From: Natronobacterium gregoryi SP2
Lineage (GTDB): Archaea > Halobacteriota > Halobacteria > Halobacteriales > Natrialbaceae
Length of the DNA: 64,000 bases
Direction of reading: 5' to 3'
Assembly (NCBI RefSeq): GCF_000230715.2
Contig: NC_019792.1
Span: 3,348,001 to 3,412,000, forward strand
In this document: in pieces, positions 8,846-33,461 of the stretch
How the letters are laid out: every line of letters starts with the position of its first letter
Numbering within the stretch: the first letter of the stretch is position 1
Program-made: the position numbers and the translations under genes
Notes under the pieces: generated by a model
Seen by the model: only the letters and a program-made list of their open reading frames with translations
Told to the model about the DNA's origin: nothing
The model's database searches: none

Positions 8846-8914
8846 CGGATCGCTGTATCGACGCCAGTGCAACCGCTTCGCTTCGGGTCGGGTCGCGGTT
8901 GCGCCGGCACCGAC
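8846..8914. repeat. Degenerate type A palindrome
   Basis: A stem CAGTGCAACCGC / GCGGTTGCGCCGGC next to the full copy at 8915-9000. The inner stem is GCAACCGC/GCGGTTGC, where other copies have GCGACCGC/GCGGTCGC, so pairing is kept while sequence changes. The outer ends are poor. Confidence 0.4.
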
Positions 8915-9000
8915 TGATACGGACTGCTGTCCCGAGAGACCGGCGCGACCGTAGGCGGGCTCGCGGTCGCACCGGAACTGACGTCCAGCAAACCGTACGA
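8915..9000. repeat. Type A palindromic repeat, copy 2
   Basis: Ends TGATACGGACTGCTGTCC and CCAGCAAACCGTACGA, inner stem CCGGCGCGACCG / GCGGTCGCACCGG. It lies downstream of mct in a gene-free stretch. Confidence 0.7.
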
Positions 9001-9533
9001 CAGGAAGCCTATGCGACGACCCGCCAATTGGGTTTCGAGACGACGCGGGCCGTGATCACCGTGTCGGGTGGCCGGCGTTCGATCGTGTTTTGACTCCCGC
9101 CGTCCTGGAGGAACGCAAACGTAAGCTACAAGACGACCCCGCCGAAACGAGAGAGTATGCTGAACGGTGGCTTCACGTCGGCCCCTGCTGGCTCGCTGGC
9201 TACCGCAGCGTCTCGTCCGTTTTCGAAACCTAAACGCGTCTAACGTGCCCATGGAAGACCGACGGCTCGGCGGCGTTTCGCCGTGTCGTGGTCAATTCCC
9301 TGGCTGGTAACGCACCCGTCAGCCGCCGCCATCCATCGCGCTCGATCGCACGACTGGAGTCGTGTCGGCCACTCGCTGACGGGTCCGTATCGATTGCTGT
9401 TGGCCAGTCGTCCGACCGGACCGGGTCGAGCCCCGAGCTTCGAGCTCTGGCTGGGCGCTGGGTCCGAAGCGACGGCTGTCTCACAGAATATTGCACACGT
9501 CTGGCTGTTCCAGACACATCTCTATCCAACGCG

Positions 9534-11021: not shown

Positions 11022-11999
11022 CGGTGTAAGTGGGCTTCACTGGGAAAACGGCGCTTGACGATGTACCCGACAGTAGCTCGGGCGAGAAGACAAGCGCCAC
11101 CGGTGGCCGGGGTTTTTCCTCTTCGAGAGCCGGGCAGCAGACGGCAGTCTCTCGTCCGTCTGCAGTCTCGAGCACGGCCCGACGCCGTGAATCGGCTATG
11201 CTGAATCGACGTGGATAAACAGATACAGGATCGTAGATTATTAGTCTTCCAACAGTATTTCGACACGTTTGGCGAAGTTTCGATCACCGCGTCGAACACA
11301 CCGGGACTCACAGCTACAGTGATGGAGGATGACGTTCGGCTGCGCGGCTAAATCGACCGGAAGCGCCGCGAGTTCGTCGTCTCGTTTCGCCGTCCGCTCT
11401 GCGAGAAGCGGCTGGGTGAGCGTCGTAACTCCCTCGAAGGCCGCCGAACGTGTAGAAACAGTTCGTTACAAGTGCGTTATGGGGAGTCGGTTCTGCTGGC
11501 CGTCGACCGAGTCGCGGGCCAGGCCTGCCCTGCTGGATCGAATCCCGACCGTCTGGACGATTTGACTCGTCAGTCGACGGTTGGGACGGTTCTAGTACCA
11601 TCCCAAGCGTAGACCGACTAGTTGAGAGTTGGCCAAAATCGATCACGATTCTCGATCAGAAGTGGAGTGCACTAGTCAGAGTAGACTCGCGACACTACTA
11701 TCTCACAGTCTCGTCGAGTACAATACTGTGTTTCGATCTCACAAGCACACATATAAATATTGCTAACTATATAGAAAAATGGAACGTTTCCGGTCTAAGT
11801 CCGACTCCCCAGTGCCACCCGGTCGTGTAGCGTCCGTTCTCACTGCACGACTCACGAGCCAACGCCCCACGCGCTCCGCTGTGGATAGTCGTGTACGGCA
11901 CCATCGCAGCTGCACTGTTTCACCACTCCGTTCTCGAGTTGACCACCGCGAACGTGAAACCCACAACCTGTGTCACACACTCGGACGGTTTGCGACTTC
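11022..11999. other. Gene-free stretch, about 980 bp
   Basis: No convincing gene. It holds a type B repeat (11514-11596) and an AT-rich segment near 11750-11780 with a TATA-like ACATATAAATATT, but no credible coding frame follows it. Short open frames here are Arg/Ser-rich and lack acidic bias. Confidence 0.55.
11514..11596 (+). repeat. Type B palindromic repeat, copy 1
   Basis: Pattern GGCCAGGCCTGCCCTGCTGG ... GATTTGACTCGTCAGTCGAC followed by GGTTGGGACGGTTCTAGT. The two arms CTGCTGGATCGAATC and GATTTGACTCGTCAG pair imperfectly. A reversed partial arm (CATCCCAAGCGTAGACCGAC) follows at once. Confidence 0.6.
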
Positions 12000-12533
12000 T
12001 CACATCGTCTCGAGAGAGCTACCGAGCTGGCCTGGAATCTCTTCTTCGAGAATCGGCGCACTACACTCCTCCTGACCGAGCGTGTTGGTCTGTTCGGTGA
12101 CGACGAGGAGGTGTTGGTGGACGTTCCTGATCGCCGACTGGAGTGTTTCGATTTCGTCGGTCTGCGTTGGGTCTGTCTGTGCCTGGTCTAAGTGTCCCAC
12201 AGCGAGTGCCTCCGTCACATCTTGCAGTTCCAAGACTGGCGTAAGGAGATCCCGGCGGACGACCCAGACAGTGTTTGCGAACGCGAGAGTCACAAGGCAG
12301 ACGACCACAGCCGTCCCGACGACGTATCCCGTTGGCATGGCCGTCAGTACTCGCGTAGGGCCGAGAAAGGCAAGCGGAAACACGAGCAGCAACATCGCGG
12401 CCACGTACTGGATGACGGCCGCCGTGAGGACCTTTCGCTCGATGCTGTCCTCGAACTGGAGCCACTGCAGCAACTGCCGGAGCGTGCGTCGGTACGTGTC
12501 GACTACTACGCGTGAAACTGTGGCTCCTTTCAT
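12000..12533 (-). CDS. Small HAMP-type membrane protein
   Basis: 177 residues with two hydrophobic helices (about 34-57 and 67-90, KVLTAAVIQYVAAMLLLVFP and TGYVVGTAVVVCLVTLAFAN) followed by a HAMP-like segment: RRDLLTPVLELQDVTEALA, GHLDQ, DEIETLQSAIRNVHQHLL. It resembles the membrane and HAMP part of halobacterial transducers but has no signalling domain; it stops after a short acidic tail. It may be a remnant or a stand-alone sensor piece. Its start codon lies inside a type A repeat. Confidence 0.65.
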   Translation of the reverse strand: MKGATVSRVVVDTYRRTLRQLLQWLQFEDSIERKVLTAAVIQYVAAMLLLVFPLAFLGPTRVLTAMPTGYVVGTAVVVCLVTLAFANTVWVVRRDLLTPVLELQDVTEALAVGHLDQAQTDPTQTDEIETLQSAIRNVHQHLLVVTEQTNTLGQEECSAPILEEEIPGQLGSSLETM

Positions 12534-12616
12534 ACGGTTTGCTGTCCATCAGTTCCGGCGCGACCGCGAGCCCACCTGCGGTAACGCCGGTACCTCGGGA
12601 CAGCATTCCGTCTCAT
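12530..12616. repeat. Type A palindromic repeat, copy 3
   Basis: Ends TCATACGGTTTGCTGTCC and GGGACAGCATTCCGTCTCA, inner stem CCGGCGCGACCGC / GCGGTAACGCCGG. The start codon of the HAMP-type gene (12531-12533, minus strand) is in its left end, and type B copy 2 abuts its right end. Confidence 0.7.
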
Positions 12617-12700
12617 ACTAGTACCGTCCCAACCGTCGACTGACGGGTCGAATCGAGCCACACCGCCAGATTCGACCGATCAGTTCAGGCTTGGCCCGCC
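12617..12700 (-). repeat. Type B palindromic repeat, copy 2 (reversed)
   Basis: Starts TACTAGTACCGTCCCAACCG and ends CAGTTCAGGCTTGGCCCGCC. It is almost the exact reverse complement of the copy at 23436-23520, which suggests recent movement of one of them. Confidence 0.75.
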
Positions 12701-12710
12701 ACTAGTGCTT

Positions 12711-12790
12711 TGGCAAGCCTGAACAGATGAGTGAAACCGAATGCAGTCGTCTGGTTTCACTCAGCAGTCGACGCTTGGCGGAGTACTAGT
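12711..12790 (+). repeat. Type B palindromic repeat, copy 3
   Basis: TGGCAAGCCTGAACAGATGA at the left, CAGCAGTCGACGCTTGGCGG and AGTACTAGT at the right. The inner arms GAGTGAAACC / GGTTTCACTC differ completely from other copies (GGGTCGAATC / GATTCGGCCC) yet still pair, so the hairpin is conserved by compensating change. Confidence 0.7.
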
Positions 12791-15181: not shown

Positions 15182-15219
15182 GAGAGGTGAGCCCGTACCG
15201 CTGTTCGCGGGACGATCGA

Positions 15220-15308
15220 GCGGGAGTCCGTCGGGTCGCCCACTGCGCGTAGTCAAGCGGGAGTCCGTCGGGTCGCCCACTGCGCGTAGTCAAGCGGGAG
15301 TCCGTCGG
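15220..15308 (+). repeat. 37-bp tandem repeat, about 2.4 copies
   Basis: The unit starting GCGGGAGTCCGTCGGGTCGC at 15220 repeats exactly at 15257 and begins a third time at 15294 (15 bases). It lies between the response regulator and the convergent DUF5305 gene. The two full copies look identical, so it is recent. Confidence 0.85.
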
Positions 15309-20501: not shown

Positions 20502-20655
20502 GTTGTGACGCCGCCACAGCCCGTCCGGGACGACTTTCACAGGCGGCACGAGGCGGAAGCAGTGAGACTGTCCACGACCCGAGCCGCTGAACCGCCCCAG
20601 CTCCCGGTTCGTGGACCAGCCGATACGTAGATACCGTCGATTACGAGAACGGAGA

Positions 20656-20740
20656 CATGCGGTTTGCTGTCCGTCAGTTCTGGTGCGACCACGAGCACGC
20701 CTGCGGTCGCGCCGGAACAGCGGGACAGCAGTCCGTATCA
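20656..20740. repeat. Type A palindromic repeat, copy 4
   Basis: Ends CATGCGGTTTGCTGTCCG and GGGACAGCAGTCCGTATCA with inner stem GTGCGACCAC-type / GCGGTCGCGCC. Seventy-eight bp from copy 5. Confidence 0.65.
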
Positions 20741-20818
20741 GAGACAACCTCGCGCAGAGTAACACTCTCGACGAAGCAGCGATTCCCGGATTCGCCTCGA
20801 CATCACACCCCGCCCCTC

Positions 20819-20904
20819 TGATACGGATTACTGTAACGATTTGCCGGCGCAACCGCCGCCCGGGTCGCGGTTGTGCCGAAAATGACTTACAGTAAACCGT
20901 ATGA
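20819..20904. repeat. Type A palindromic repeat, copy 5
   Basis: Ends TGATACGGATTACTGTAACG and CTTACAGTAAACCGTATGA. The inner stem is CCGGCGCAACCGCC / GCGGTTGTGCCG, a paired change from GCGACCGC/GCGGTCGC. It separates the convergent solenoid-protein and histidine-kinase genes. Confidence 0.7.
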
Positions 20905-20923
20905 GAACGAGACGATATCGGCG

Positions 20924-23399: not shown

Positions 23400-23561
23400 T
23401 GGCGGGCCAAGCTTGCACTGCTGGGTCGACCCTGGTGGCGGGCCAAGCCTGAACTGATGGGTCGAATCTGGCGGTGTGGCTCGATTCGGCCCGTCAGTCG
23501 ACGGTTGGGACGGTACTAGTCGTGTGGTCGGTTCGACACAGCAGTCGACGCTTGGAACGGG
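23400..23561 (+). repeat. Type B repeat, copy 5, split by an inserted type B copy
   Basis: The left arm (TGGCGGGCCAAGCTTGCACT, 23400-23435) and right arm (GTCGGTTCGACACAGCAGTC plus GACGCTTGG, 23521-23561) make one type B element when the 85 bp between them are removed. The joined form matches the intact copy at 24837-24920 through its loop. Confidence 0.65.
23436..23520 (+). repeat. Type B palindromic repeat, copy 4, inserted in copy 5
   Basis: TGGCGGGCCAAGCCTGAACT at the left, GGTTGGGACGGTACTAGT at the right. Arms TGATGGGTCGAATC and GATTCGGCCCGTCA pair. Almost identical to the reverse complement of 12617-12700. No target-site duplication is evident at its ends. Confidence 0.75.
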
Positions 23562-24552: not shown

Positions 24553-24657
24553 CGTTAAACTCTCGAGACGAAAGGTTATCCCCACTGGAAACTAAGACCT
24601 TTCGGCCAACATGATTGGGACGGTATCTCCCAGTTCACAGGCGGTACGAGGCGGCTG

Positions 24658-24685
24658 CCCCGACCCTTGAGGTCGGGGAGGAAGC
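24658..24685. repeat. Hairpin resembling an IS200/IS605 (IS1341-type) end
   Basis: CCCCGACCCTTGAGGTCGGG (24658-24677) followed by GAGGAAGCC is the hairpin seen at ends of haloarchaeal IS605-order elements with TnpB. No transposase or TnpB frame is near, so it is an isolated end or a non-autonomous remnant. Confidence 0.45.
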
Positions 24686-24836
24686 CGACAATCGATGTAA
24701 CAAACCATGCCACAATGGCTGGTCGAAGGGTGTCAACTGATCTTCCGAGATGACGAGAGACGGAGTCTCTCGAACCACGTGACCTCGAGGCGATTTACGT
24801 GCTCGGGCCACGGTGAGTTCGACGTGGTTTCACTCG

Positions 24837-24920
24837 TGGCGACCCAGGCTTGCACTGCTGGGTCGAATCTGGTTGTGTGTGTCGGTTCGACTCGTCAGTC
24901 GACGGGTGACACAGTAGTAA
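24837..24920 (+). repeat. Type B palindromic repeat, copy 6
   Basis: TGGCGACCCAGGCTTGCACT at the left and CGTCAGTCGACGGGTGACAC at the right, with arms TGCTGGGTCGAATC and GGTTCGACTCGTCA. This intact copy shows what the disrupted copy at 23400-23561 looked like before insertion. Confidence 0.6.
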
Positions 24921-25489
24921 CGTTCGATACCACACTTTCCCGGCGACTGGATCGGCGAGACAAATAGTCTGAAAAAGATAATTTCTGTCGTCTTCTTCTA
25001 CAAGAGATACGTTTGTCCGATCTCGGTAGCCGTGTGACGGGCCGTGAGAACTGATCCACCGTGGCAGCGGTTGCTGGTAAGACCGCCGGCAGCGGCGTCG
25101 CTGACGACGCGTTTCTGGCCCAACACGAAACGACACCCTCGTGCAAGCGGACCCGCAGACGCCGGAAACAGCCGAGAAGAGGAGACTCTGCTCTCGTCGG
25201 ACCGACAGCGGCAGACTGCCAGTGTTACTCGTCGCTGAGTCGAACTTCGAGAGACTGCAACTCGATTCAGGCGATCACCGCCTTTCGGCCGTCGAACCAC
25301 CGTCTGTCGCTAACTCCGTCGTGCCGTGTGGCTCCACTCGAGCCTATATGTTCTATAAAATAACTATATAGTGGACTGATAGTTGTATTTATTGATACTA
25401 ACTCTCTCTGACGTTCGTCCGGAGTGTTCCTCTCGACCCACACTCCGAGGAGTCGGTGTCTCGACCGAGGTAGTCGACCGTGGGAGCGA

Positions 25490-25572
25490 GACGGACTGCT
25501 GTCCCGATGTCCCGGCGCGACCGCGAGTCCTTCTGCGGCCGCGCCGGAACTGACGGACAGCAAACCGTGTCA
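25490..25572. repeat. Type A palindromic repeat, copy 6
   Basis: Ends GACGGACTGCTGTCCCGATG and CGGACAGCAAACCGTGTCA, inner stem CCGGCGCGACCGC / GCGGCCGCGCCGG. Confidence 0.7.
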
Positions 25573-25967
25573 ATGCCCCCGCCGTTAACTGAACACGGTC
25601 AGCGAACGACCGAATCGTGAATCGACCTTCGCCACGCCCTGCAAGACGAGGAATCCGCCCTCGGATCTCTACCGGATGTGGCGTTCGAGGTTCCAATCCC
25701 CACTCGAGGAGAACCGTCGCCAGACTGGGGGAACTCTCTTTTCGGCTGTGTTGAATCACTAGTGGGGTAGTTTACACCAACAACCGATAGCGGTTCTCCC
25801 GTCGGGCCTACCGCTCGACTTGCACCTGAAGTCGCAGGTATGCGCTCACAATCGCTATCACACTCAGTACGAGACTCGATGCACGATCGCGAACGATTCG
25901 AGAGCAAATCGGACGGAATCGTCCGACCTCTCTCGAGGGGTCACGAGACTATCTGGTCGGCTCGATC

Positions 25968-32397: not shown

Positions 32398-33249
32398 ATG
32401 GATCGACGAGCGATGCTACGACTTGCCGGTGTCACCGGAACGGCGGCGATGGCCGGCTGTCTCGCCGACAGCCTGGGGACCGACCCCGACGACGGCGACG
32501 AGTCCGAGTCGAACGGAGACGACGAAACACCCGCTGACGAGCAATCAGAAGACGACACAACCGACGGTGGACCGGAACGCTCCCCGGCGGAAACGGTGGT
32601 CGCCTTCTACGAGGCGATCGCCGACGGCGATGTCGACCGGGTCCACGACCTCCAACACGACGAGGCCGACCCATACGACGTGGACGACGAAGACGAATTC
32701 ACCGTCGAAGCGACGGAAACGATCGCGACCGACGACGACAGTGCGACGGTCGAAACGCTCGTGACGGCCGACGGCGCAAGCGTCGCTCTCGGACCGGTCG
32801 TCGACCTCGAACTCGAAGACGGTGCCTGGCGCGTCCTCGAGGTCAGCCCCATCAGGCCGGACGACGACACGGCGCTCAGGCCGAACGCCACGTTCGAGGT
32901 CGATCGGGAGAACGGGAGCCAACGAATCACACACACCGCAGGTGACGACGTTCGAGCGTCGACTCTCTCCGTCCGCGGGGATGGCCTCGAGCAGACCGGG
33001 GCCTGGACCGATATCGGAGGCGACGCGAGCGCGGAGATCGACGGGGAACCGGCAGTCACCGCCGGTGACGCCGTCACCGTCGGCGTCGCGGACGACGACT
33101 CCCCTCTCGGTCGTCTGGGACGATGGGACGGTCGCCGTCGAACTCGCAGGGGTAGCCGGTGCGACCGCCTCGGCGACCGAGAGCGCCGACGGGGCGACAG
33201 CGTCCGACTCTGCGTCCGAATAGCCACTCATACGGATTGCTGTAACTAG
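32398..33249 (+). CDS. Tat lipoprotein, frameshifted near its C-terminus
   Basis: MDRRAMLRLAGVTGTAAMAG leads to lipobox MAGC at about residue 21. An acidic linker, an NTF2/SnoaL-like segment (ETVVAFYEAIADGDVDRVHD) and a C-terminal beta domain of the archaeal pilin-like type (RITHTAGDDVRASTLSVRGD; GEPAVTAGDAVTVGVADDDS) follow. After DDDSPL the listed frame turns Arg-rich. The +1 frame gives SVVWDDGTVAVELAG and stops at 33223, as expected for the family. A one-base indel near 33105-33115 is therefore likely. Confidence 0.7.
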   Translation: MDRRAMLRLAGVTGTAAMAGCLADSLGTDPDDGDESESNGDDETPADEQSEDDTTDGGPERSPAETVVAFYEAIADGDVDRVHDLQHDEADPYDVDDEDEFTVEATETIATDDDSATVETLVTADGASVALGPVVDLELEDGAWRVLEVSPIRPDDDTALRPNATFEVDRENGSQRITHTAGDDVRASTLSVRGDGLEQTGAWTDIGGDASAEIDGEPAVTAGDAVTVGVADDDSPLGRLGRWDGRRRTRRGSRCDRLGDRERRRGDSVRLCVRIATHTDCCN

Positions 33250-33312
33250 TTACCGCCTATCGACAGAACGGGGACGGCGATCGGCGGTAAGTGACGACAG
33301 TAAGCCGTATGA
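33228..33312. repeat. Type A palindromic repeat, copy 7 (different core)
   Basis: Ends TCATACGGATTGCTGTAACT and GACGACAGTAAGCCGTATGA as in other copies, but the core is TTACCGCCTATCG / CGATCGGCGGTAA, unrelated to the usual GCGCGACCGC core and still paired. Ends are conserved, the core only as a fold. Confidence 0.7.
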
Positions 33313-33461
33313 GGACACGTTGCTCGAGTCGACGAGAGTGTGCTCGCGGAGAGTTGGCGAGGGGCGGTCGCCGGCCCAGTTTCGCTGGTGCAGCCCCGTG
33401 ACGCGCCGGCCGACACATATAAAGAGTAACCCTTTTGCAACACCCCGACACACGTTCGAGC

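Follow-up and report, generated by a model that had tools for sequence, protein, structure and literature searches.

An 80-bp MITE-like hairpin element family with CTAG boundaries in Natronobacterium gregoryi

A palindromic repeat that sits inside an older copy of itself in the haloarchaeon Natronobacterium gregoryi SP2 belongs to a family of short, dispersed elements bounded by CTAG, here called the B family. The nested copy lies in a 64,000-nucleotide stretch, the window, of the home genome, a single contig of 3,788,356 bp. We consider it probable that the B family is a non-autonomous, MITE-like 80-bp element that inserts at CTAG and is moved by a trans-acting, most likely DDE-type, transposase. 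This reading draws on the dispersion of the copies, their ends, CTAG boundaries, empty sites, two 5-bp target duplications, modular arrays and hairpin covariation. We infer the class of the enzyme and its action in trans, and a DDE enzyme with a 4–5-bp duplication is our best guess.

The nested locus consists of a young B1 unit and the two halves of an old one. The left half of the B1-like host unit (23400–23435, plus strand) ends in the loop sequence CTGG (23432–23435). It is followed by the insert (23436–23515, plus strand), an 80-bp B1 unit running from T to A as a single long hairpin, 97–98% identical to dozens of genome copies. A CTAG at 23516–23519, the target duplicate whose left counterpart is CTGG 23432–23435, forms the right junction, and the right half of the host (23520–23561, plus strand) joins the left half into a B1-like member. 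The earlier note had described an 85-bp element at 23436–23520 splitting a relative. The nesting stands, and the extent becomes 84 bp (23436–23519): alignment of the joined halves with other copies delimits a unit TGGCGG...GGTA (80 bp) plus CTAG. T23520 is assigned to the host loop because removal of 84 bp leaves CTGG followed by TCGTGTGG, which aligns with the loops of other copies.

These relationships identify the event as an insertion. As the earlier note saw for 12617–12700, the insert is nearly a reverse complement of a second window copy: 23436–23520 and the reverse complement of 12617–12701 are 97.6% identical (E 7e-38). The host arms do join into a family member, at 84% identity to 24837–24904 and 82% to the B1 consensus over 78 bp (about 18% divergence). 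The former comparison copy, formerly taken as intact, is an old single B1 (24837–24916, plus strand) that has lost both CTAGs, reading CTCG on the left and GTAA on the right. Chance resemblance is excluded for the nested pair because the B1 unit recurs dozens of times at 96–98% identity. With a young insert between host halves that have diverged by about 18%, the locus records insertion into an old copy, neither a tandem duplication nor an old block. We regard a 160-bp block that is a single old compound repeat, or a tandem duplication, as extremely improbable. B3 units show that compounds with internal CTAGs can spread as one, but the inner unit here is 97–98% identical to many solo copies against the diverged host halves, those halves make one continuous family member, and the nested block turned up nowhere else. 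We infer the order of events: the loop of the older copy, reading CTGG or a CTAG variant of it, would have received the B1 unit.

B elements are abundant in the home genome. A B1-unit search returned 44 near-full matches, most at 96–98% identity, and the B1 right arm alone gave 137 dispersed matches. A pattern built on the end motifs matched 241 times, against 0 for its reversed control. Elsewhere in the host's taxonomic family, copies are fewer and more diverged, occurring in 12 of 41 genomes with the home genome counted. The three types, B1 (80 bp), B2 (80 bp) and B3 (102 bp), have end motifs and CTAG boundaries in common, and their conserved ends read T..C...CCAAGC.T..ACTGA. B3 contains conserved internal CTAGs, and its build suggests an inner unit that once entered an outer one, with the resulting compound spreading afterwards; the window example (11596–11697) is made of pieces of 26+54+26 with conserved internal CTAGs. 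No ORF is confined to the unit, and 80 bp leaves no room for a transposase; the earlier note likewise saw none encoded. An Rfam search found no family matching the element, and an initial scan that used the neighbouring sensor kinase protein gave no matches. The proposal of a non-autonomous, mobile element is borne out by the dispersed right arms and by clean empty sites, and mobilisation in trans would follow with good support.

CTAG is rare and avoided in the window. It occurs 35 times there, where base composition predicts 225 occurrences and a Markov model 69. Whether orthologous or paralogous, empty sites hold a single CTAG and occupied sites two, so the net gain per insertion is one unit plus one CTAG. 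Related genomes, where the earlier note had advised looking, supplied clean examples. Site 1418394 of the home genome reads CTAG-B1-CCAG, and its orthologue in genome G003 has a single CTAG at a stop codon, without insert; an insertion in G003 (L181) compared with G008 likewise reveals an empty site with a single CTAG. Site 1576193 is empty in 13 of 13 genomes searched; its right CTAG lies at the stop codon position of the convergent gene, and 4 of the 13 read CTAG there. Paralogous empty sites come from a repeat, A2, that carries GTAACTAGTTAC and has been split exactly there by B units in several copies. The ancestral CTAG is the left one at 1418394 and the right one at 1576193.

Insertion sites are CTAGs at stop codons, at the ends of other B units and in the A2 repeat. 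Both strands of CTAG contain TAG, and the encoded protein is therefore unchanged when a unit inserts at a C-TAG stop. The rarity of CTAG, and the frequency with which it includes a TAG stop codon, account for the many insertions at gene ends. Among 54 arrays flanked on both sides or enclosed by called genes, 19 lie between convergent genes, about 20 directly touch a stop codon and one is inside an ORF, locations that are approximate since genes were called by codon-position G+C bias.

The B family duplicates its target. The earlier note saw no target duplication; across the family, nearly every copy is bordered by CTAG on both sides and empty sites have one CTAG. Variant targets are decisive, because at CTAG itself duplication and insertion 3' of CTAG look alike. 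One copy in G003 (L179) has CTGAG on both sides, and its home genome orthologue reads GACGAACTGAC; CTGA is therefore ancestral and the other copy the duplicate. A second, in genome G016 (L046), has CTTAG on both sides. These two copies, the ones on which the 5-bp duplications rest, favour duplication of CT(N)AG, and this duplication suggests a DDE-type enzyme. The nested window copy points the other way, with a host loop CTGG and CTAG on the right. B1 loops read CTGG in 79 of 93 sampled copies and CTAG in 0 of 93, and the differing flanks mean that duplication at this copy is imperfect; either duplication followed by one mutation or insertion without any duplication would account for this. The remaining one-sided variants are consistent with decay of the CTAG copy that is not a stop codon, or IS630-type insertion into the TA of CTAG. 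Comparison of L182 with L184 explains some ATAG ends by IS630-type or E2 insertion into that TA.

We propose that CTAG is the insertion site of an 80-bp unit, which ends up with a CTAG at each side, a net gain of 84 bp. A trans-acting transposase, most likely DDE-type, would duplicate 4–5 bp (CT(N)AG) and recognise the conserved ends, probably with the hairpin too. Modular arrays would grow because every insertion regenerates CTAG at both ends, and further B1, B2 and B3 units could land on these end CTAGs.

Arrays are composed of B1, B2 and B3 units with one CTAG per junction, in free order and orientation. The window holds CTAG-B1(-)-CTAG-B2(+)-CTAG at 12618–12789 (B1 12622–12701, B2 12706–12785) and an old B1 and B3 array at 11512–11697, in which B1 (11512–11591) has a left end decayed to CGAG and is joined through CTAG 11592–11595 to B3 (11596–11697). 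All orientation combinations occur at B1/B2 and B1/B3 junctions. In about 255 kb around element-bearing sites of the home genome, a sample in which B2 and B3 counts are lower bounds, CTAG-to-CTAG spacings of 84 bp (138 times), 26 (77) and 54 (40) recur and every other spacing appears at most 4 times. Sites fetched by a CTAG pattern are biased towards intact CTAG, a bias from which the first 44 copies are free. Same-type neighbours are rare, at 4 of 91 junctions in home genome arrays, though B1 makes up half of the units; recombinational loss of homotypic tandems or target immunity could explain this. Strict CTAGs at every junction, all orientations and fixed unit lengths are also what one would see if a CTAG-specific recombinase, or cutting and re-joining at CTAG, exchanged units and let arrays grow without a transposase. 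We find this quite improbable, since the conserved internal end motif, together with the hairpin, implies that more than CTAG is specifically recognised, and the CTGAG and CTTAG duplications are not expected from it.

The whole B unit forms one hairpin with inverted ends, and the B1 consensus folds at -44 kcal/mol. Across 18 diverse units, 92.5% of cells pair; the figure is 85.3% for shuffles and no higher than 40% when the register is slid. Twelve of 26 hairpin pairs have changed on both sides, which 0 of 500 shuffles reach. Such compensatory changes maintain the stem, and the internal loop (CTGA on the left, CGAC on the right) is nearly invariant. Covariation and loop leave room for recognition of the hairpin by the enzyme. 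That much survives, as a hint, of the earlier proposal of an IS200/IS605-order enzyme that recognises hairpin ends; the assignment to that order is not supported. The asymmetric conserved internal loop is unusual for a DDE MITE and speaks against our preferred explanation, as do searches that found no transposase or full-length IS with B ends. An undescribed archaeal class of mobile hairpin, whose enzyme would read the CTGA/CGAC loop of a fixed-length (80 bp) hairpin and cut CT(N)AG, with CTAG stops as safe landing sites, strikes us as distinctly unlikely.

The hairpin also bears on whether a Y1/HUH enzyme, an IS200/IS605 TnpA or RAYT-like, moves the unit. Y1 enzymes place their elements 3' of the target and do not duplicate it. 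Such an enzyme would carry the hairpin as single-stranded DNA, like bacterial REPINs, to a position 3' of a CTAG-like tetramer, the 3' CTAG being the element's own and no duplication arising. A whole-element hairpin with two-sided changes and an invariant internal loop, and a fixed tetramer at its foot, would suit this, as would the nested copy, with the host's own CTGG on the left and CTAG on the right. Left variants also outnumber right ones: among 85 young B1 copies, CTAG is missing on the left in 5 and on the right in 1. Yet the home genome has Y1_Tnp fragments only, CTGAG and CTTAG are duplicated, and the ancestral CTAG is left of the element at one site but right of it at another; for Archaea, moreover, only IS200-type Y1 enzymes and no REP-associated ones have been reported (PMC6006769). 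We judge this route unlikely.

A DDE-type enzyme moving B units in trans remains the preferred reading, and searches for a mobilising enzyme covered several candidate families. A Y1_Tnp search of the home genome yielded three partial matches, one with an internal stop and two 4 kb apart, and no REP-associated Y1 transposase (RAYT). An IS605-type tnpA/tnpB element at 3034588–3039063 of the home genome is broken by about 4 kb of inserted DNA; a B3 unit beside a broken IS605 tnpA (L119) looks like chance. IS630-type duplication of TA only, prompted by NTAG and CTAN variants, was rejected: both IS630 families of the home genome have different ends. ISH3-like loci, considered as partners, were only sub-threshold and none has B ends as its termini. 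A scan of 84,980 species genomes, possibly leaving out the home genome, with an end motif that skips mini-elements found no autonomous partner; its only matches were one by chance and four Natrialbaceae mini-elements, each decayed or interrupted. Nor did such a partner emerge when 12 genomes, the home genome among them, were scanned with an end motif; some of the matches were inspected, and those listed were mostly B3 ends. The full-length partner IS with the same ends that the earlier note recommended seeking was not found by these searches, which would miss an IS sharing shorter ends with B units.

The closest known kinds are MITEs and the SMRs of Haloquadratum. MITEs are non-autonomous relatives of DDE insertion sequences. 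Like them, B units are short and non-coding, have inverted terminal repeats, duplicate their target and are presumably mobilised in trans; unlike them, the whole unit is one hairpin kept by compensatory changes, and no autonomous element with B ends was found among IS630- and ISH3-like loci or genome scans. SMR-A and SMR-B of Haloquadratum walsbyi are 80–110 bp long, have prominent inverted repeats unrelated to known transposons, exist in tens of nearly identical copies and tend to land in other mobile repeats (PMC3119063). They were reported without target duplication, SMR-A preferring IS605/PATE palindromes, and the mobility of tiny transposase-free haloarchaeal repeats was called enigmatic in 2011 (PMC3119063). 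B elements resemble SMRs in being haloarchaeal and short, with inverted repeats unrelated to known transposons, many near-identical copies, frequent insertion into other mobile repeats and unexplained mobilisation. They differ in targeting and duplicating CTAG, and their sites are not the palindromes of SMR-A but CTAGs, including stop codons and other palindromic repeats.

Other palindromic elements agree with the B family in part. REPINs and BIMEs likewise number about 100 copies, with a long hairpin of two inverted conserved arms, a fixed foot tetramer and mostly intergenic positions; unlike those with a RAYT, the home genome has Y1 gene fragments only, and the CTAGs flanking B come from the target. 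The IS and MITEs that belong to the IS630 family in these genomes use the same CTAG, at its TA, which accounts for some ATAG-type ends, but B terminal repeats differ from theirs. IS200/IS605 derivatives such as PATE have a subterminal hairpin at each end and no inverted terminal repeat, in contrast to the single full-length hairpin and inverted ends of B. PATE inserts 3' of its target without duplication, whereas B duplicates CTGAG and CTTAG and can have its ancestral CTAG left or right; taken by itself, the nested copy would agree with the PATE pattern.

With defined ends, a defined target, more than 100 young copies and clear duplication, the B family makes it feasible to search for the enzyme and to put candidates to the test. 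Safe-site targeting is illustrated too: insertions are directed to gene ends by a rare and avoided tetranucleotide that can also serve as a stop codon. B hairpins at gene ends may serve as terminators.

Further repeats occur near B elements. A type A palindromic family (85–95 bp, ends CTGATACGG...CCGTATCAG) has window copies at 1968–2062, 8912–9006, 12527–12621, 20652–20746, 20816–20910, 25484–25578 and 33227–33313. Type A copies are inserted in B units at TGA (L272, L274 and home genome 1505848), and the internal CTAG of subtype A2 has repeatedly been hit by B units. Another palindromic repeat, ending CTACTATAG, sits at the TA of CTAG and adjoins B units (L031, L144, L191, L047, L175); at L182 an IS630-type gene fragment occupies the same position. 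The IS605-like hairpin noted earlier at 24658–24685 is indeed a repeated IS605/PATE-like end (81% to L195), and nothing ties it to B1; the gene-less terminal hairpin at 24640–24700 (CCCCGACC..GGTCGGGG) is repeated elsewhere in the home genome. At 15205–15289 of the window, a 37-bp unit is tandemly duplicated with 97% identity.
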